Shown here piece by piece: positions 7,824 through 31,124 of a stretch of DNA of 64,000 bases. Made by a program: the position numbers and the translations under genes. This DNA is from Wocania ichthyoenteri Th78 (GTDB lineage Bacteria; Bacteroidota; Bacteroidia; Flavobacteriales; Flavobacteriaceae), in assembly GCF_000789235.1 (NCBI RefSeq), contig NZ_KN525716.1:1651674-1715673 (forward strand), written 5' to 3'. The notes beneath the pieces are model-generated. The model saw only the letters and a program-made list of their open reading frames with translations, did not search any database and was not told where the DNA came from. Numbering within the stretch: position 1 is the stretch's first letter; the number at the start of each line of letters is the position of its first letter.

Positions 7824-10800
7824 ATGAAAAAAACGGACACAAAAGTCTTGTCAAAAAAAATTCTTTTCCGAATTATGAAAATTTACACACTTTTGCTTTT
7901 TGTGACTATGGCTGAACTCTTTGCTGTAAATGCAAATGGACAGAATGTAACTATTAATGTAAGTAATACTGAATTAAAATCTGTTTTCAATAAAATTGAA
8001 AGTTTAACAGAATTTAACTTCTTTTACAATAATAGTTTAATCGATGTCTCAAAAAGAGTATCACTAAATGTTAATAATCAAGATTTAAACCAAGTTCTTG
8101 TAAACTTATTTGAAAAAACCAATATAGATTACAGACTTTTAAAAAATCAAATTGTATTATTTCCAAAAAATGACACAGCAATAATTAAAGTTATTGAAGA
8201 CCTAATAAAAGCTGAAAGCTCTGAAAGGGAATTTGAAACTTTAATTAAAAATGTACTTCAAAACGAAATAAAAGGTAAAATTACTGGTACAGACGGAATT
8301 CCACTTATTGGAGTAAATATTATAATTCAAAATACTACTACTGGGGCACAATCAGATTTTGATGGAAATTTTTCTATTCAAGCTAACAAAGGAGATGTTT
8401 TAGAATTTTCTTATTTAGGAATGAAAACCCAAACTATAACTGTTGAAGATTCTAATATAGTTAATGTTATTATGGAAGAAGATGCAGAAAGTTTAAGCGA
8501 AATAGTTGTAACAGCATTAGGTATTAAAAAATCCAGAAAGTCATTAACTTATGCCGCACAAGATATTAATGCAGATGAGTTAAATAAGGCAAAACAAACA
8601 AACCCAATTAATAGTCTATCGGGTAAAGTTTCAGGAGTATCTATTACTCGTAGTGCTTCAGGTGCTGGTGGGTCTGTTAAAGTAACTTTAAGAGGAAATT
8701 CTTCAATTGGAAACAATCAACCATTATATGTTGTAGACGGTGTTCCTTTATCTAACCCTTCATCTAGCCAACCAGGGGATACTTTTGGTGATATTAACGG
8801 GGGTAATAGAGACGGTGGAGACGCATTAGCTTTAATAAATCCAGATGACATTGAATCCCTAACAGTACTTAAAGGGGCTTCTGCTTCTGCCTTATATGGT
8901 AGTGCTGGTCTTAATGGAGTTATATTAATTACTACAAAAAAAGGGCGCTCAGGCAGTTTTATAGTAGATTTTTCTTCAAACCTAACTGTTGATAGTGTTG
9001 CTTATGCCATGGATTTTAATGATGAAGCACAAAGTAATATTGATGACTTTTTAGATTCTGGAGTTACAAATATTAACTCTTTGTCAGTTTCTGGAGGAAC
9101 CGAAACTGCTCAAACCTATTTTTCTTATAGTAATACTTTTGCAGATGGTGTATTGCCAACAAATAAATTAAAGCAACATACTTTTAATGTAAGAGAAACT
9201 GCAAAACTATTTGATGGTAAGTTAAATGTTAATGCTAGTGTTATGGCATCTACACAAAACATAAAAAATAGACCAATTTCTGGTTTGTACTTTAATCCAT
9301 TAGTTGGTGCTTACGCTTTTGAATCTGCTACAGAAATATTATCAGACTATTCTAACTTTGAAGCTTTAGATCCTAATAGAAATATTATGGCGCAAAGATG
9401 GTTTAGAGGGACTTCGGATATTGAACAAAATCCATACTGGGTAATAAACCGTAATGCTTCAGAAGACAATAGTAAAAAAATGGTTGCGTCTTTAAGTTTA
9501 GATTTTAAGATTAACGATTGGCTATCTCTACAAACTAGAGGGACTTATGACAAGTCATTATTCAATTTTGAAAGAAGAATTTATGCAACTACTGAAGCTA
9601 CCTTAGCGCCTGCTAATGGAAGATATGTAGTATTTGAAAATGATTATACACAATATTATGGTGATATAATAGCAAACATTAATACGCAAATTAATGAAGG
9701 CACTTCAATTAATGCCATTGTAGGAACAAGTACAACACGTACAACTACTGAAAACTTTACAGGAGACTCTGGAACTAATGGAGGCTTGCAATATGCAAAT
9801 GTCTTTTCATTTCAAAACTTTAATGGTAACCCTTCAGTAAACTTTAACCAAAATTCATTAGAAACAAGAGTGAATTCATTATTCGCAAGTGTTACAGTTG
9901 GCTTTAATGACAAATTTTTTGTTGATTTAACAGCAAGAAATGATTGGACATCTACATTACCAGCAGAAAACAATTCATTCTTTTATCCTTCTGTAGGTGT
10001 AACAGGTGTTTTAAGTGAGTTATTAGAGTTACCAGAAAATGTATCTTTTGCTAAAGTAAGAGCTTCTTATGCTGAAGTTGGTAATGGTTTTGCAGCGGAT
10101 CAAATATCACCCAACAATACTATTGTTTTTGGTGGTGGTGGTGTAAACTCAACAGATCCAATTAAACCTTTCCCAGGTTCTACTCCAAAGCCAGAAAGAC
10201 AAAAATCTTTCGAGATTGGTACTGAGTGGAAATTTAACAATAACAAATTTGGTATTGATTTAGGATATTATAACACTAAAACTACAGATCAGTATTATGC
10301 ATTCTCTACTTCTGTTTCTATTATAGGTGCACCTCAAGCATATTTGAATTCTGGAGAAATTTCTAATAAAGGTATAGAGGCATCAATCTATGCAATCCCT
10401 GTTCAAAAAGAAAATCTTAAATGGACAACGACTGTAAACTTTGCCTCTAATAAAAATAAAATTGAAAAAATCTATAATGGACAAGTGTTAGAAGGCTTAA
10501 TAGAACCTGAGTTCTTTACGCTTTCTGGTAAAGGTGTAAATACTTTCGGTTCTTATTTAGTTGAAGGCGGTTCTTTTGGTGATATCTATGCACAAGTTGT
10601 TAGTAGAAATGCTGATGGGCTTCCAATTATTGAAAGTGATGCCGTTATAGCTAATAACAATAATACAGTTGATGGTTTAACCAAAGTAGGTAATGCAAAT
10701 CCTGATTTTACATTAGGATGGAACAACTCATTTGAGTTTAAAAACATTACTGTAGATTTCTTAATTGATGGAAAATTTGGTGGCGAAACCATGAGTATGA

Positions 10801-25182: not shown

Positions 25183-25533
25183 TTAATTCTCTCTTTTCAC
25201 CAAAGCATAATAATCACCTTCAAGAGGTAAATAGCCTTGGTTGTAAACAAAATAATAAATAGTACCTGCTTTTGTAGTATATATACTTGTAAAGTAATTA
25301 AAATCAAATCCTTTTTCAATAAGTTTTGCTCGCGAGGCCTTTGTTTTTTGATCTGGATTTAGGGCTTCTAAAATTCTATAATTTTTACGAAGCCTATTAT
25401 TGGTGTTTCTAATTAAGTTTTTGTGGTCTTTGTTAATATTGTTGTTATAGGCATTTCTACATCCATCACTACAGAATTTTTTATCGATTCTGCCAATAAT
25501 TTTATCACCACATTCTGGACATTTCTTTTCCAT
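25183..25533 (-). CDS. Small zinc-ribbon protein
   Basis: A 116-residue protein opens with a four-cysteine treble-clef/zinc-ribbon (CPECGDKIIGRIDKKFCSDGC, landmarks Cys5, Cys8, Cys21, Cys25), of the kind annotated DUF2116-like. A basic Asn/Lys-rich helix and a short C-terminal beta domain (YFVYNQGYLPLEGDYYALV) follow. It starts 2 bases after the GNAT stop, so it is translationally close-coupled. The partner or nucleic acid it binds is unknown. Confidence 0.75.
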   Translation of the reverse strand: MEKKCPECGDKIIGRIDKKFCSDGCRNAYNNNINKDHKNLIRNTNNRLRKNYRILEALNPDQKTKASRAKLIEKGFDFNYFTSIYTTKAGTIYYFVYNQGYLPLEGDYYALVKREN

Positions 25534-25535
25534 AA

Positions 25536-26066
25536 TTATTCGTTTTGAATTTTATACCAACGCAAGTTTAATTGCTCTTGTTCAAAATAAAAATCTTCAA
25601 TATAATGCAATCCAATTTTTAAAAGTGCATGGTGCGACGCTTGATTTCCTATTTCAGTTGTAGCATATAATTCTGGTAATTTTAAAACATTAAAAGCATA
25701 ATTAACTGCTGCTTTTCCAGATTCGGTTGCATAACCTTTTCTCCAATATTTTGGTATAAGTCTGTAACCAACATCGTAATATTTAGTAAAGCCATTCATA
25801 TTATATTCTGTATTTAATCGTACTCCAGACCAGCCAATAAAATTGCCTGAAGACTTTTCAATAGCAGCAAACCTGCCAATACCGCGTTCTTTATATTGAT
25901 TGAAAACACTATCGAGTATTTTTTGAGATTCTTCAATAGTTTTAACTGGTTTGTTTCCTAAATATTTATGAACTTCAGGATTAGAATCTAACTCAAACAT
26001 ACCATCTAAATCAGTTTGTCTTAATTCTCTTAAAATTAATCTTTCGGTTTCAATGTTGAATTTCAT
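25536..26066 (-). CDS. GNAT-family N-acetyltransferase (RimJ/RimL-like)
   Basis: The product is a 176-residue acetyltransferase. The start at 26066 (MKFNIETERLILREL) matches the family N-terminus. An in-frame ATG at 26150 would take coding into the inserted mobile element and is rejected. Motifs are ETERLILREL, GYRLIPKYWRKGYATE (acetyl-CoA loop) and HHALLKIG. The mobile element begins 36 bases upstream of the start and may have displaced the original promoter. Confidence 0.88.
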   Translation of the reverse strand: MKFNIETERLILRELRQTDLDGMFELDSNPEVHKYLGNKPVKTIEESQKILDSVFNQYKERGIGRFAAIEKSSGNFIGWSGVRLNTEYNMNGFTKYYDVGYRLIPKYWRKGYATESGKAAVNYAFNVLKLPELYATTEIGNQASHHALLKIGLHYIEDFYFEQEQLNLRWYKIQNE

Positions 26067-26094
26067 TTTTAATTGGATCTTGTTATATAGATGC

Positions 26095-26102
26095 CAATAT
26101 AA
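26095..26102. repeat. Target-site duplication, left copy
   Basis: CAATATAA here is repeated exactly at 29020-29027, outside the other end of the mobile element. Eight bases is the size expected for IS1595-family insertion. Confidence 0.85.
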
Positions 26103-26126
26103 GGGATTTATATACCTGTTTACACC
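26103..26126 (+). repeat. Left terminal inverted repeat
   Basis: The 24 bases start GGGATTTATATA and end CTGTTTACACC. They pair with 28996-29019 at 19 of 24 positions. The inner nine bases GTTTACACC are identical and recur in the internal promoter dyad. Confidence 0.88.
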
Positions 26127-26127
26127 G

Positions 26128-26146
26128 TTTTCGGGCTTTCCGAAAA
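26128..26146. other. Hairpin just inside the left end
   Basis: Seven-base arms TTTTCGG / CCGAAAA with a GCTTT loop lie 1 base inside the terminal repeat. It may limit read-through into or out of the element, as subterminal hairpins do in other insertion sequences; this role is inference. Confidence 0.4.
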
Positions 26147-26224
26147 TCAATTCAATTTACGGAATTATTTTATTTTGGAAAGGAGGAGGTGTTTTAGATG
26201 AGTAATTTAGAACTTATTTTAACC

Positions 26225-26827
26225 CTAATTTATACTATCCAATTTTGTTGCGGTGTCAGTTTGGCTATTGTGCATGTCTTTTGTTCCAGCTTCAGCATCA
26301 GGAGAATTGGTTTGTTCATGTTGTTGACTTTCATTCCTGTATTCGGGTACTATTTCGTTTGGCTGTGGCTTAAAGTAATTGGGGAATACAATAGGAATAA
26401 CTATTGATAACAGGGCTATAAAAAGAGATGCAAAAGCTAAATAGGTAGCGTTCATTGAAGACCTTCTTGTTCTTTTAACAATATATCTATTTAGCGCATC
26501 GCCTTTTATGTATGATTTGGATGCATTATACTGTTTATAATCCCTATACGTTATTTTATTCAAGTAATAATTTGAATTGCTTGCTGTATTCAAACCTAAA
26601 ATTTTTGGCTCTACTTTATTATTATAAAAATTTGAATAGAACCATATCACAAAGTTAATTTCAAAATCTTCGTTGCTAATATCTATTTTTAACTTCTCCA
26701 CAACTTCATCAAAAGAAATGCCCTTCTCATTAGAATTATAGCCCATTTCGAGTGTTTTCATATAAACACTATTCTCGATGTCCTTTTGAGTTAGCTTTTC
26801 AATTAACTTTTTAAAACTAATTTTCAT
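26225..26827 (-). CDS. Hypothetical membrane-anchored cargo protein
   Basis: A 200-residue protein is encoded divergently from the transposase inside the element. Residues 1-115 are charged and helical (FKKLIEKLTQKDIENSVYMK, FDEVVEKLKIDI) with a possible small winged-helix character. One strong transmembrane helix lies at about 127-150 (YLAFASLFIALLSIVIPIVF), and the last 50 residues are a hydrophilic Gln/Glu/Thr tail. I recognise no family. The basic stretch VKRTRRSS before the helix predicts a cytoplasmic N-terminus. It shares its upstream control region with the transposase. Confidence 0.7.
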   Translation of the reverse strand: MKISFKKLIEKLTQKDIENSVYMKTLEMGYNSNEKGISFDEVVEKLKIDISNEDFEINFVIWFYSNFYNNKVEPKILGLNTASNSNYYLNKITYRDYKQYNASKSYIKGDALNRYIVKRTRRSSMNATYLAFASLFIALLSIVIPIVFPNYFKPQPNEIVPEYRNESQQHEQTNSPDAEAGTKDMHNSQTDTATKLDSIN

Positions 26828-26860
26828 AACGATTCAAAATAATTAAAATATTAGTTCTTT

Positions 26861-26890
26861 TTTACACCAAATATTTGTTTATTGTGTAAA
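26861..26890. promoter_or_regulatory. TTTACAC/GTGTAAA dyad over the transposase promoter
   Basis: Arms TTTACAC (26861-26867) and GTGTAAA (26884-26890) are separated by 16 bases, in the divergent promoter region. The same TTTACACC core forms the inner end of both terminal repeats, so the transposase or another element protein may bind here and repress its own transcription. The right arm falls between a TTTG (26874-26877) and the -7 box. Confidence 0.55.
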
Positions 26891-26897
26891 TAACTAC

Positions 26898-26905
26898 TAT
26901 ATTTG
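26898..26905 (+). promoter_or_regulatory. -7 box of the transposase promoter
   Basis: TATATTTG matches TAnnTTTG exactly, 21 bases before the transposase ATG. A TTTG at 26874-26877 is 20 bases upstream and can serve as the -33 element. Confidence 0.7.
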
Positions 26906-26926
26906 AATATCTAAATAACCAATCAG

Positions 26927-27853
26927 ATGTTCAATAAAGAAGTAAAATCAATAATAGACTTAATACAAGCGTTCCCAACAGAACAAGCTTGTATAGACCA
27001 TTTAGAGTTATTGCGTTGGAACGGAAACGTTGTAAGTCCTTTTGATGCTACTTCTAAAGTATATAACTGTAAAGGAAACAAATATAAATGTAAAAATACA
27101 GGAAAATACTTCAATGTTAAGACCAATACCATTTTTGATAATACTAAAATGGAATTACAAAAGTGGTTTATGGCTATTTGGTTGGTTACTTCACATAAAA
27201 AAGGCATTTCATCTTTACAATTAGGTCGTGATTTAGGGATTACTCAAAAATCAGCGTGGTTTATGCTACAACGTATTAGAAACTGTTTTGGATTGAATGA
27301 AGATAACAACGATAAGTTACAAGGAGAAGTTGAAATTGACGAAACTTATGTAGGTGGTAAAAACGGAAACAGAAGCACAAAGATTAGAGCTGACAAATCA
27401 GAAGCAACAAAAGAACATTACAAAAAATCGGCCGTTTTAGGGATGGTTGAACGTGGTGGCGATGTTAGAGCAATGCATGTTGTAGATGCTACGGAATTAT
27501 CTTTAATACCGCCAATAGTAAACAACATATCGTATGATGCTACTATTTATTCAGATGAATTAAAGGCTTACAATAAATTAGAGCGTGTTTACGACCATAA
27601 AACAGTAAAACATGGTAGAGGTGAATACGTGAGAGGTAGAGTATCTACAAACTCAATAGAGAGTTTTTGGGCGTTGTTAAAGCGTGGTATTTATGGTATT
27701 TATCATTTCACATCTAAAAAACATTTACAGTTTTATGTTGATGAATTTGTATTTAGATACAATACTAGAAAATCTTCTGAAAGTGATAGATTTAATTTAC
27801 TTTTGTGTAATATAGAGAATAGAATAACTTATAAAGAATTGATTAGTGAGTAA
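26927..27853 (+). CDS. IS1595-family transposase (ISXO2-like DDE domain)
   Basis: This 308-residue transposase has an N-terminal zinc-ribbon-like region (about 15-75, landmarks Cys18, Cys44, Cys50, and KYFNVKTNTIFDNTKM). A helix-turn-helix segment follows (about 95-115, ISSLQLGRDLGITQKSAWFM). The catalytic core has Asp138 (EIDETYVGGKNGN), Asp210 (IYSDELKAY) and Glu245 (STNSIESFWALLKRG). The order and the motif VGGKNGN are typical of the IS1595/ISXO2 group. The reading frame is intact. Its stop overlaps the KilA-N start by 8 bases. Confidence 0.95.
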   Translation: MFNKEVKSIIDLIQAFPTEQACIDHLELLRWNGNVVSPFDATSKVYNCKGNKYKCKNTGKYFNVKTNTIFDNTKMELQKWFMAIWLVTSHKKGISSLQLGRDLGITQKSAWFMLQRIRNCFGLNEDNNDKLQGEVEIDETYVGGKNGNRSTKIRADKSEATKEHYKKSAVLGMVERGGDVRAMHVVDATELSLIPPIVNNISYDATIYSDELKAYNKLERVYDHKTVKHGRGEYVRGRVSTNSIESFWALLKRGIYGIYHFTSKKHLQFYVDEFVFRYNTRKSSESDRFNLLLCNIENRITYKELISE

Positions 27854-28832
27854 GGTAAAAAAAATAGTAGTTGAGGGAATTCCTGTTTCTTTAACTGAAA
27901 TTGGAAATGAAGATTATATCTGCTTAACAGATATGATTAAGGCAAAAGACGGAGATTTCTTTACAAGTGATTGGTTAAGAAACGTTAACACTCTTGAATA
28001 CCTTTCAGCTTGGGAGACAATGAATAACCCAGATTTTAATTATGGCGAATACGCCCTAATTAGACAGTCTTCTGGCACTAACACATTTAAAATCAGCGTT
28101 AAAGAATGGGTTTTAAAAACTAATTCTATCGGTATTACAGCGCAAGCTGGAAGATATGGAGGAACTTATGCTCACAAAGATATAGCGTTTAATTTTGGAA
28201 TGTGGATAAGCCCAATGTTCCAGCTTTACATAGTTAAAGAGTATCAAAGGTTAAAAACCATTGAAAATGACACTCTTAATTTAGAATGGGATATAAAGAG
28301 AGTTTTAAGCAAGGTTAACTACCACCTACACACTGATGCAATACTAAAGCATATAATACCAAAATCAACACTTCCAGATAGTAAAAAAGGAATTGAATAC
28401 GCGAAAGAAGCGGACTTATTAAATTTAGCTTTGTTTGGATGTACAGCAAGAGAATGGAGAGATGCAAATCCTGCTCACGCAAAAAACAAATTAAATGTTA
28501 GAGATTTTGCAAGTATACATGAGTTGAATGTAATGTCTAATTTACAGTCTTTCAATGCAGAAATGATAAAAAAAGATGTTTCTAAATCGGCTAGATATAA
28601 AATTTTATTAAAGGCAGCGCAAGAACAATTAGAGCAGCTCAAAAAGATAGATATATTAAAGGCTGTTAGGAGACAAAATGATACTACTTACATTGAAGCT
28701 AAAGAAAAAACAGGCGAGGAATTAGAACAGGAAACTTCAAAAAACATATTAGATAAAAATAAAAAGGCTTTATCTGACTTCAATAAAAAATTAAAACAAG
28801 GATTGAATTACAATCCTAAAGACGAAAAATAA
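27846..28832 (+). CDS. KilA-N domain protein, passenger of the mobile element
   Basis: A 328-residue protein starts at GTG 27846, within the last codons of the transposase (GTGAGTAA overlap), so translation is probably coupled. The KilA-N DNA-binding domain covers about 5-135 (EDYICLTDMIKAKDG, SDWLRNVNTLEYL, AGRYGGTYAHKDIAFNFGMW, LYIVKEYQRLK). The remaining 190 residues are helical and lysine-rich (AEMIKKDVSKSARYKILLKA, EELEQETSKNILDKNKKALS). KilA-N proteins are common in phages and nucleocytoplasmic viruses. Here the role may be target choice, regulation of the element or a host-takeover function; none can be shown from sequence. Confidence 0.92.
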   Translation: MSKVKKIVVEGIPVSLTEIGNEDYICLTDMIKAKDGDFFTSDWLRNVNTLEYLSAWETMNNPDFNYGEYALIRQSSGTNTFKISVKEWVLKTNSIGITAQAGRYGGTYAHKDIAFNFGMWISPMFQLYIVKEYQRLKTIENDTLNLEWDIKRVLSKVNYHLHTDAILKHIIPKSTLPDSKKGIEYAKEADLLNLALFGCTAREWRDANPAHAKNKLNVRDFASIHELNVMSNLQSFNAEMIKKDVSKSARYKILLKAAQEQLEQLKKIDILKAVRRQNDTTYIEAKEKTGEELEQETSKNILDKNKKALSDFNKKLKQGLNYNPKDEK

Positions 28833-28995
28833 TAACGTTCATTGAAAAGTAAGAACCTAATTAGACTTTACAAGTCGGCAAGACGCTCAATCTTGGATTA
28901 CTGCTGAATTAGTGGCGGTCGATAGAGAGGATTAGACAACTTACATACTTCAAAAAAAGCACTATTTCTAAGTGCGAAATTAAACTTTACTTTCT

Positions 28996-29019
28996 GGTGT
29001 AAACTTATATATAGTTCCC
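28996..29019 (-). repeat. Right terminal inverted repeat
   Basis: Read inward on the minus strand, it starts GGGAACTATATA and ends GTTTACACC, matching the left end at 19 of 24 positions. The 163 bases between the KilA-N stop and this repeat hold no gene that I can support. Confidence 0.88.
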
Positions 29020-29027
29020 CAATATAA
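29020..29027. repeat. Target-site duplication, right copy
   Basis: CAATATAA is an exact duplicate of 26095-26102. Confidence 0.85.
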
Positions 29028-29041
29028 GAAAAAATTATTCG

Positions 29042-29072
29042 TTTACAAACGACTACAAGCATTTACAAACGA
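29042..29072. repeat. Paired direct repeat upstream of ssb
   Basis: TTTACAAACGA occurs at 29042-29052 and 29062-29072, spaced exactly 20 bases (about two helical turns), about 110-140 bases before the ssb ATG. The phasing suggests a protein-binding pair, but no factor is known to me. Confidence 0.4.
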
Positions 29073-29180
29073 TTTTAAGTAAGTAATAACCGAATAACTT
29101 TTGGAAGGCATCGCATATTTGCCCTGTCGAAACATAAGAACTCGATAGTATTAACTGTTTAACGATTAAAATTTAAAATT

Positions 29181-29516
29181 ATGAACACACTTAGAAACAG
29201 AGTACAGTTGATTGGTAACTTAGGAAACGATCCAGAAATCATCAATCTAGAATCAGGGAAAACATTAGCCAAATTTAATATTGCTACCAACGAAAGCTAC
29301 ACCAATAATAAAGGTGAAAAAATTACAGACACGCAATGGCATAATGTAGTTGCTTGGGGAAAAACGGCTCAAATAATTGAAAAATATGTAACCAAAGGAA
29401 AAGAAGTTGCTATTGAAGGTAAATTAACATCACGTAGTTACGACGATAAAGAAGGCAACAAGCGCTATATAACAGAGGTAGTTTGTAGCGAATTATTGAT
29501 GCTTGGAAAACAATAA
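29181..29516 (+). CDS. ssb: Single-stranded DNA-binding protein, short form
   Basis: The 111-residue OB-fold protein begins MNTLRNRVQLIGNLGNDPEI, with WHNVVAWGKTAQIIEKYVTKG in the middle and SRSYDDKEGNKRYITEVV near the end. It stops at LLMLGKQ directly after the OB fold, so it lacks the disordered linker and acidic C-terminal tip used to recruit partner proteins. A short SSB like this is often a second, specialised copy in Bacteroidetes. It lies next to the mobile element insertion site, whose right end is about 150 bases upstream. Confidence 0.93.
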   Translation: MNTLRNRVQLIGNLGNDPEIINLESGKTLAKFNIATNESYTNNKGEKITDTQWHNVVAWGKTAQIIEKYVTKGKEVAIEGKLTSRSYDDKEGNKRYITEVVCSELLMLGKQ

Positions 29517-29531
29517 ACTAACTTATTAGTA

Positions 29532-31124
29532 TTAAGTGAAGCTTCTATTTTTAATAGAAGTTTCACTATTTTTTACATTATCGACATTAAAATATCCTCC
29601 TTTATTTTCTTTTCTATCTAAAGATTGATTAATTATTAAATGCGCTACATTTATCATGTTTCTTAATTCGCAAAGCGATGTAGAAATTTTTGATGCTTTA
29701 TAAAAATCTTCAACCTCATTATAAATTAAATCGAGATGTGTAATGGCTTTAGTTAATCTGCTATTGCTACGAACTATCCCTACATAATCTCGCATTAAAG
29801 CTTGTAATTGGCGTAAATTATGCTGAATTAAAACATACTCTTTTGGGTTACTAGTACCTTCATCATTCCAATTAGGAATATTCAAATCTATAGACTCATT
29901 GTTAGCCTTACTAAGGTATTTAAAAATATTATGAGCATATACTAAAGCTTCTAATAACGAATTTGACGCCAGCCTATTAGCTCCATGAAGTCCCGTTCTT
30001 GTACATTCGCCACAGGCAAATAAATTTGGGACAGACGTTTTTCCATCTTTATCAACATCAATGCCTCCACATAAATAGTGTGATGCTGGCACTACTGGAA
30101 TCCAATCGGTTTCAATATTAATATTATGCTTTTTACATTTTTTATAAATATTAGGGAAGTGTTTTTTAAACGCCATCATATCTAAATGTGTACAATCTAA
30201 AAACACATGAGTATCTCCTGTTTTCTTTAATTCGTTATCTATACTTTGCGATACAATATCTCTGGAGGCAAGTTCAGCTCGCTCATCATAATTTGGCATA
30301 AAACGTTCTCCTGCTTTATTACGCAAATAAGCTCCAAAACCTCTTACGGCTTCAGATATTAAAAATGACGATTTACCATCTGCATGAAATAAAGCTGTAG
30401 GATGAAATTGTACAAATTCCATATCTAAGATCTTTGCTTTTGCTCTGTACGCCATCGCAATACCATCGCCAGTTGCAATTACAGGATTTGTTGTATGCCC
30501 ATAAACCCAACCTATTCCACCGGAAGCCAATAATGTACTATCTGCTTTTATAGTAAAAATTGTTTCCGTTTTTTGGTCTAAAACATAAGCGCCATAACAT
30601 GCATCTTTATTTGGTTTTTTATGTGTTAAATGATGATTTGTAATTAAATCTATAGCAAAATGATGCGGTAAAATAGTAATATTTTGTAGTTGATGCACTC
30701 GGGTTAATAAAGCACGCTCAATTTCTGCTCCTGTAATATCTTTATGATGCACTACACGATATTCTGAATGCCCACCTTCTTTTCCTAAATCTAAATTTCC
30801 GCTCGTATCAAAATCAAAATTAGTACCCCAAGCCATAAGTTCTTCTAGGCGTTTTGGCCCTTCTTTTACAACCATTTCAACAACAGATGCATCACAAAGT
30901 CCGTCACCAGCAATTAAGGTGTCTTTAATATGTTTTTTGAAAGAATCTTTTTTAGCATTTAGAACAACTGCAACACCTCCTTGAGCATATTTTGTGTTGG
31001 ATTCATCTTCGCTAGCTTTAGTGATTATGGTTATTGTTCGATCTGGAAATTTTTCAGCAATTTTAACCGAAAATGTTAAACCTGCTATACCCGAACCAAT
31101 AACTAAATAATTTGTAGTCATCAT
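29532..31124 (-). CDS. nadB: L-aspartate oxidase
   Basis: This 530-residue FAD flavoprotein oxidises L-aspartate to iminoaspartate, the first step of de novo NAD synthesis. The FAD loop is VIGSGIAGL at the N-terminus. Other family motifs are SNTKYAQGGVAVV, GGHSEYRVVHHKDITG, MEFVQFHPTA, SHYLCGGIDVD and the Arg-rich GLHGANRLASNSLLEALV near residue 385. It begins 2 bases after the nadA stop, so the pair is one operon. Either of two adjacent ATGs could be the start. Confidence 0.96.
   Translation of the reverse strand: MMTTNYLVIGSGIAGLTFSVKIAEKFPDRTITIITKASEDESNTKYAQGGVAVVLNAKKDSFKKHIKDTLIAGDGLCDASVVEMVVKEGPKRLEELMAWGTNFDFDTSGNLDLGKEGGHSEYRVVHHKDITGAEIERALLTRVHQLQNITILPHHFAIDLITNHHLTHKKPNKDACYGAYVLDQKTETIFTIKADSTLLASGGIGWVYGHTTNPVIATGDGIAMAYRAKAKILDMEFVQFHPTALFHADGKSSFLISEAVRGFGAYLRNKAGERFMPNYDERAELASRDIVSQSIDNELKKTGDTHVFLDCTHLDMMAFKKHFPNIYKKCKKHNINIETDWIPVVPASHYLCGGIDVDKDGKTSVPNLFACGECTRTGLHGANRLASNSLLEALVYAHNIFKYLSKANNESIDLNIPNWNDEGTSNPKEYVLIQHNLRQLQALMRDYVGIVRSNSRLTKAITHLDLIYNEVEDFYKASKISTSLCELRNMINVAHLIINQSLDRKENKGGYFNVDNVKNSETSIKNRSFT
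29535..29567. terminator. Bidirectional terminator overlapping the nadB 3' end
   Basis: A 15-bp stem with one G-U pair (AGTGAAGCTTCTATT / AATAGAAGTTTCACT) and a TTT loop is followed on the plus strand by ATTTTTT. It ends ssb transcripts and encodes the last residues of NadB on the minus strand. Confidence 0.8.

Follow-up and report, generated by a model that had tools for sequence, protein, structure and literature searches.

An IS1595-family transposon of Wocania ichthyoenteri with a coupled accessory gene of exchangeable body and conserved tail

A 64,000-nucleotide stretch of the genome of Wocania ichthyoenteri Th78 (contig NZ_KN525716.1, positions 1,651,674 to 1,715,673; hereafter the window) contains a complete IS1595-family transposon of 2917 bp, read directly from the sequence at window positions 26103-29019. 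Its transposase gene is followed by a coupled gene for a KilA-N protein. Across 83 loci the recurring core is formed by two genes, the transposase and an accessory gene that bears a conserved tail, and bodies of at least five interchangeable kinds, KilA-N among them, are joined to that tail. A preliminary description, made from the letters alone, had regarded the KilA-N protein and a divergently encoded membrane protein as parts of a stable three-gene module rather than random cargo. The KilA-N gene is indeed not random cargo, since a gene with the tail, coupled to the transposase, is a core feature of the group. The stable module, by contrast, does not hold: the body is exchangeable and the membrane gene is variable cargo.

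The two-gene core and the exchange of the body

Relatives were collected from named genomes by a scan with the transposase alignment, and the best 80 of 534 confirmed relatives were taken. Together with the window and the loci L045 and L097 they make up the 83 loci, a sample that leans to close relatives. Among 397 genomes of the family, transposases matching at E 1e-30 occur in 27 and KilA-N homologues in 21. Element ends were mapped by a rule that demands an exact 8-bp duplication and inverted ends with a score of at least 20, the mapped ends being the best pair by this rule. Ends were placed in 61 of the 83 loci, with element sizes of 2014-6831 bp, whereas the same rule passed one of 249 shuffled loci; duplication and ends are therefore not a matter of chance.

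In the window the accessory gene starts with GTG and overlaps the transposase stop by 8 nt (GTGAGTAA), in agreement with the coupling that had been described. A start position 8 nt ahead of where the transposase stop ends is found in 50 of the 83 loci, and in 69 the gene starts at the stop or up to 60 nt before it. Twelve of the 61 elements with mapped ends contain no further open reading frame (ORF) of at least 60 aa once the transposase and its coupled gene or genes are set aside, which places the second gene in the core. Among 80 accessory proteins scanned, Pfam gave P63C (26), RhuM (16), KilA-N (11), HTH_26 (3), Bro-N (2) and M78 (2), and when all 80 were aligned the sole continuous majority consensus was the tail, LSDFNKxLKxxLxxNPK.

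Three blocks align between the window and L045, the transposases of which are 94% identical: the first 46 bp (96% identity), positions 26841-27843 (90%) and positions 28769-29019 (92%). Nothing aligns between these blocks. The middle block stops just before the accessory start at 27846 and the last one starts at the base that precedes the first tail codon (28770); the body and the left cargo have therefore each been replaced, the body of L045 being of the P63C family. The accessory gene exchanges its body in cassette form, with the junctions at the end of the transposase and at the tail. The transposase tree (77 of the 83 rows, with L097, L107, L131, L157, L159 and L161 omitted) has 21 of its 74 inner branches open and its bootstrap is not settled; on it, body class needs 36 changes, the minimum possible being 8, with body labels taken from BLAST clusters and Bro-N given by eye to seven short proteins, two of them supported by Pfam. 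The window's transposase falls in a well-supported set of four, the smallest that includes it, and these are accompanied by KilA-N, P63C, short Bro-N-like and RhuM bodies. The group represents a small two-gene transposon in which the partner body is naturally exchanged and the connector is kept; further cargo is carried in slots at the sides.

Elements of the same type are present in Streptococcus (L151-L154, L157 and L163). Their accessory bodies, of 151-152 aa, belong to no clear family, as judged from the scan of L151, and their divergent genes, coding for 756-775 aa, are highly variable; those of L152 and L154 share 24.6% identity and that of L151 gave no BLAST match.

The conserved tail

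The tail spans about 17 residues, LSDFNKKLKKGLxYNPK. A search pattern finds it in 68 of the 83 loci, a tighter one in 55, and in the control it was present in one of 1089 other ORFs of the same loci, this ORF being a truncated accessory remnant of an older insertion. In L102 a truncated RhuM accessory gene with an intact tail lies about 0.9-1.2 kb before the transposase and is the remnant of an earlier insertion at the same site beside ssb.

The motif is not confined to the end of a single accessory protein. In L110, L117 and L155 the tail is carried by the gene that follows a gene for an HTH/M78 protein of 397-398 aa, and in L115 it is found on a separate protein of 66 aa; in L108 the motif is internal and in L114 N-terminal, both loci standing outside the 68. 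Since it occurs at the C-terminal end, inside, at the N-terminal end or on a protein of its own, the motif acts as a peptide. By eye, the operon gene that precedes the 66-aa protein (L115, 7921-8718) looks like a proteasome-type hydrolase, its Pfam match reaching only E 0.15.

Among codon differences in the tail, counted over pairs that are not independent, 43% are synonymous, compared with 19% of the possible changes. A conserved DNA end that yields the tail as a by-product was considered and rejected: the distance from the tail stop to the right end ranges from 45 bp (L126) to 4838 bp (L129), with a median of 737 bp, and the motif is found at other positions in proteins.

A further control was provided by KilA-N, RhuM and P63C homologues in genomes of the family (34 rows). 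The tail is present in all six that lie directly downstream of the transposase, even in that of L004, which is split into two frames, and in none of the 28 rows that do not; these represent 27 distinct genes, as the row of L227 repeats the gene of L219, and internal stops occur in several of the copies without a tail. In 55 elements, left from 63 with tail and transposase after near-copies had been collapsed, a Mantel test related tail distances to those of the transposases (r 0.50, p 0.0002), with no correlation for body class (r -0.02, p 0.62). Tails of a VPPPKK-like type (L168, L169, L173 and L174) group in one well-supported transposase clade. Tail and transposase thus travel together, which is no proof of contact between them. 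A search of plasmids with the tail peptide alone gave no match and is uninformative because the low-complexity filter was on.

Relation of the bodies to phage and defence families

The body of the window protein matches the PADLOC candidate PDC-S22 (9.4e-113) over residues 1-278, so that the match ends before the tail. PDC-S22 is listed in a survey (PMC12813430). Among the other bodies, RhuM (L102) matches PDC-S05 (5e-147), Bro-N (L120) matches PDC-S13 (3.8e-97) and HTH/M78 (L110) matches PD-Lambda-2_B (3.6e-21). In the PADLOC survey of the accessory proteins the matches listed (25 of 52 families) were all to PDC-S05 or S23, the other assignments coming from representatives; the PDC families are candidate defence families only. 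The matches of the KilA-N, RhuM and Bro-N accessories to PDC-S22, PDC-S05 and PDC-S13 cover most of each protein as far as the tail; the added tail and the coupling to a transposase set the accessories apart.

BstA is described in PMC8585504 as a protein with a KilA-N-like domain that moves to sites of phage replication and blocks replication there, with a DNA element, aba, that confers self-immunity. The window protein is likewise of the KilA-N type, and the accessory protein of its relative L135 matches the abortive-infection protein BstA (PADLOC 7.4e-15; phrog_6287 1.5e-43). In the PADLOC search, however, the window protein had no match to the BstA profile and matched PDC-S22 only; it also carries the extra tail and is encoded on a transposon. 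If the tail binds the transposase, candidate defence families (PDC-S05, S13 and S22, with relatives of BstA and PD-Lambda-2) would be tied to one transposon lineage, which suggests how they spread.

A proposed docking peptide and its alternatives

We propose that the tail serves as a docking peptide for the cognate transposase and that the body is a module sensing foreign DNA or phages, as may be surmised from the families concerned (KilA-N, BstA, RhuM, Bro-N and P63C); the chances of this proposal we consider evenly balanced. Binding of the tail would link the transposase to any target of the body, most likely foreign DNA in replication, and/or hold the body in check until it is needed. The ssb site would be chosen independently of this, by the transposase or by a host factor bound to the repeat described below, and would serve as a fixed, probably harmless chromosomal home. 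If the tail does bind the transposase, the group would be a natural example of modular adaptors serving a DDE transposase.

Several observations weigh against this proposal. The tail pattern fails in 15 of the 83 loci: three are cut by contig ends, in some the tail is looser or lies elsewhere, and in L164 and L166 no gene of the tail-bearing kind is seen. Linked co-inheritance alone would produce a correlation between tail and transposase, which bears on the claim of binding. Body labels cluster on the tree more than expected by chance, with 36 changes against a mean of 46 after shuffling and none of 200 shufflings as low; body exchange is frequent but not free. In the AlphaFold model of the window KilA-N protein the mean pLDDT is 61.8, and residues 268-328 are below 50. 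P63C, the commonest body, had no PADLOC match in the two members scanned (L116 and L045); the best PHROG match of L116 is of unknown function (7.7e-118), next to a weak anti-repressor match (5.3e-6). RhuM (L102) had no PHROG match, and sensing of phages is therefore unproven. On putative viral contigs 15 loci match the transposase, 8 of them with a gene of the tail pattern; with matches only in these 15 contigs and two phage records, spread to phages is not shown.

Several RhuM proteins encoded off these transposons end in a similar stretch, SDFDKxxK, which may be the origin of the tail; the tail may thus be a borrowed RhuM end with another partner. These ends would suit an alternative in which the tail docks not on the transposase but on a host protein of the replication or degradation machinery. 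However, the full tail is missing from the 28 other homologue rows, and the tail variants track transposase groups, as the VPPPKK-like ones do, so that docking on a host protein seems very improbable.

The accessory protein might also regulate its own element by binding the ends or the promoter through the body and the transposase through the tail, thereby keeping transposition and copy number low. This would fit the translational coupling, with the start 8 nt before the stop end in 50 loci, the matches of KilA-N and Bro-N bodies to phage transcription-regulator and anti-repressor families, and the copy number, 23 of the 27 family genomes with a transposase match having one match each. Yet a regulator that binds the DNA of its own element should not change its body for that of another, unrelated family between elements whose ends and promoter remain 90-96% identical, and regulation of this kind is quite improbable.

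According to a further alternative, the accessory protein is an abortive-infection or candidate single-gene defence protein that repays the host for retaining the transposon and plays no role in transposition, and the tail would let the transposase or the element DNA silence or license it, much as aba acts on BstA, which would make the element addictive. The PADLOC matches of the bodies to BstA, PD-Lambda-2_B and the three PDC candidates, and the action of BstA at phage replication sites, are in line with such a function; the turnover of the bodies fits an arms race, and other cargo in the group includes an NYN/HEC-09 gene and an N6 methylase. The PDC families, though, are only candidates, P63C lacks a PADLOC match, and defence alone does not explain why the tail follows the transposase. 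We regard a purely defensive role as rather doubtful.

Insertion beside ssb

In the fetched DNA, ssb was found at 20 of the 83 loci and most loci show none; ssb is home for only part of the group. At all 13 ssb loci with mapped ends, which are from Flavobacteriaceae, the element adjoins a conserved repeat, CGTTTACAAACGACTACAAACATTTACAAACG, upstream of ssb. The repeat is matched at 23-31 of 32 positions at these 13 elements and at no more than 19 at the other elements. It is separated from the duplication by 11-12 bp in 12 of the 13 (2 bp in L100), and the right end is proximal to the repeat in 12 of the 13, the exception being L108. In L100 and L116 the element stands between the repeat and ssb; the others are located beyond the repeat. 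The repeat is also present in relatives free of the element, which makes it a feature of the host, and at up to three mismatches it occurs once in the genome of the window. The fixed ssb site offers a genetic landmark for the study of target choice by an IS1595 element.

A periodic repeat, of the type CGxxTACAAA (window 29040-29071; L180-L202), is located about 100-150 bp upstream of ssb in many of the family genomes inspected, with or without an element, and is perhaps the regulatory site of some factor.

More distant elements at ssb (L087, L088, L089 and the second element of L097) have their right end proximal to the repeat in all four cases, at a spacing of 9-12 bp; their transposases are 42-44% identical, their end sequence is another one and no tail was found in them. 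Six other distant elements in the same test are not at the repeat. A second recurrent target is a Band_7/SPFH-domain gene, upstream of which lie L106, L109 and, in opposite orientation, L155. In L087 (7686-10801) an ssb gene appears to be split, with residues 1-57 on one side and 54-110 on the other of some 2.8 kb containing a further ssb-like ORF (8126-8455); an element has perhaps inserted in ssb and brought its own.

The KilA-N protein had been suspected of guiding transposition, which is not borne out for the ssb site. Elements with five types of body (KilA-N, RhuM, P63C, Bro-N and HTH/M78) and the four distant tail-less ones all use it, and HTH/M78 accessories that are 88% identical are found at ssb (L117) and at the Band_7 gene (L155); choice of the site by the body was rejected on these grounds. 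The element ends and the ssb repeat share TTTACA at a similar distance from the cut, which makes it plausible that the repeat is recognised by the transposase itself.

Transposon Tn7 uses TnsD and TnsE for targeting: it inserts in one orientation at a fixed spacing from a conserved landmark and has a second route to foreign DNA. The oriented insertion of the present elements at a fixed distance, 11-12 bp in 12 of 13 with the right end proximal in 12 of 13, resembles the first route. Unlike Tn7, the element has a single DDE transposase and its landmark is the repeat upstream of ssb; the four ORFs of at least 69 aa that were scanned in the element gave matches to IS1595 and KilA-N and, for two, no significant match, with no AAA+ (TnsC), TnsA or TnsB-type protein among them. 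An IS1595-type version of such a two-route strategy, in which the ssb repeat would be the fixed home and interchangeable phage-directed adaptors on one docking peptide would bring the transposase to the DNA of invading phages or plasmids, to hop onto it or attack it, can be envisaged and is distinctly unlikely.

The element and its ends

The features of the element and its right flank are compiled in Table 1. The duplication, the inverted ends and the transposase profiles agree with the preliminary description of a complete IS1595-type element. The ends, GGGATTTATATACCTGTTTACACC and GGGAACTATATATAAGTTTACACC, match at 19 of 26 positions over 26 bp and both start with GGG; these imperfect ends and the 8-bp duplication (CAATATAA) stood up to the comparison with shuffled loci. 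In its own 3.95-Mb genome the element gives a single match. The transposase is intact, as had been stated: D138, D210 and E245 are invariant in 11 aligned sequences, as are C22, H25, C48 and C55 of a possible N-terminal zinc ribbon whose profile match (PF12760, E 0.0016, 18.8 bits) is below the cut-off of 25.4.

Table 1. Positions in the window of the transposon, its genes and the adjoining ssb region
Feature	Position	Strand	Basis
8-bp target duplication CAATATAA, left copy	26095..26102	.	sequence; rule-based end search
Left terminal inverted repeat	26103..26126	+	sequence; end search; first 46 bp of element 96% identical to L045
Divergent gene for a 200-aa protein with one predicted membrane helix; slot with variable cargo	26225..26827	-	one hydrophobic stretch
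IS1595-family DDE transposase, 308 aa (D138, D210, E245)	26927..27853	+	PF12762 E 4.5e-41; NF033547 IS1595 E 1.9e-59
Accessory gene, KilA-N body (PADLOC candidate PDC-S22) and conserved C-terminal tail; GTG start	27846..28832	+	PF04383 E 3.9e-21
Tail LSDFNKKLKQGLNYNPKDEK	28770..28829	+	block shared with L045 starts within one base of first tail codon
Right terminal inverted repeat	28996..29019	-	sequence; end search
8-bp target duplication CAATATAA, right copy	29020..29027	.	sequence; rule-based end search; single CAATATA in empty sites
Conserved repeat CGTTTACAAACGACTACAAGCATTTACAAACG, presumed attachment landmark; spacing to duplication 12 bp	29040..29071	+	sequence comparison
Host ssb gene, recurrent neighbour	29181..29516	+	PF00436 E 5.1e-34

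Different insertion sites and empty sites were found among relatives of the element. Two genomes of the same genus, G392 and G240, lack it. In each, the same ssb repeat is closely preceded by a single CAATATA, which is nearer to it by a few bases than in the window. Their left flanks do not align with that of the window, and the empty sites, the examination of which the preliminary description had suggested, therefore support the right boundary and the duplication but not the left flank. In L101 the top-scoring right end belongs by its sequence type with those of the more distant elements at ssb and may reflect a tandem or composite insertion. An ORF of 69 aa (26198-26407), antisense in the membrane gene and with no significant match, was taken as a chance ORF, and an Rfam search of 25500-29600 gave no match.

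With the IS1595 family (ISXO2-like; NF033547, PF12762) the group shares the DDE transposase, imperfect ends that start with GG and 8-bp duplications; it differs by the coupled core gene of exchangeable body and fixed tail and by the fixed ssb site. No report of such a core gene and ssb site was found among the papers listed in searches of the open-licence literature, judged by title and start of abstract, and no paper in it contained both KilA-N and IS1595. IS1595 members with passenger genes are known, such as MTnSag1 and tISCpe8 (PMC5704250).

The divergent membrane gene and other cargo

The opposing gene for a protein with one membrane helix is present as described. The protein has no significant match in Pfam, NCBIfam or PADLOC and a weak one in PHROG (E 0.01). 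In favour of a lasting association, a divergent one-helix gene recurs in this slot in the window and in its close relatives L100-L103, and in L103 the three-gene order is the same, with a KilA-N protein 93% identical to that of the window. The one-helix genes of L100-L103, however, have no BLAST match (E 1e-3) to that of the window or to each other. Membership of the gene in a stable module was rejected, as it is replaced in the closest relative, L045; in 33 of the 61 elements with mapped ends the slot holds no ORF of at least 60 aa. Weak homologues of the membrane protein are present in 3 of 396 other genomes of the family, and their loci as fetched contain no transposase match. A RadC/JAB-like gene, so judged by eye, coding for 136-144 aa with 61-67% identity, lies beside or inside the elements of L107, L110 and L111.

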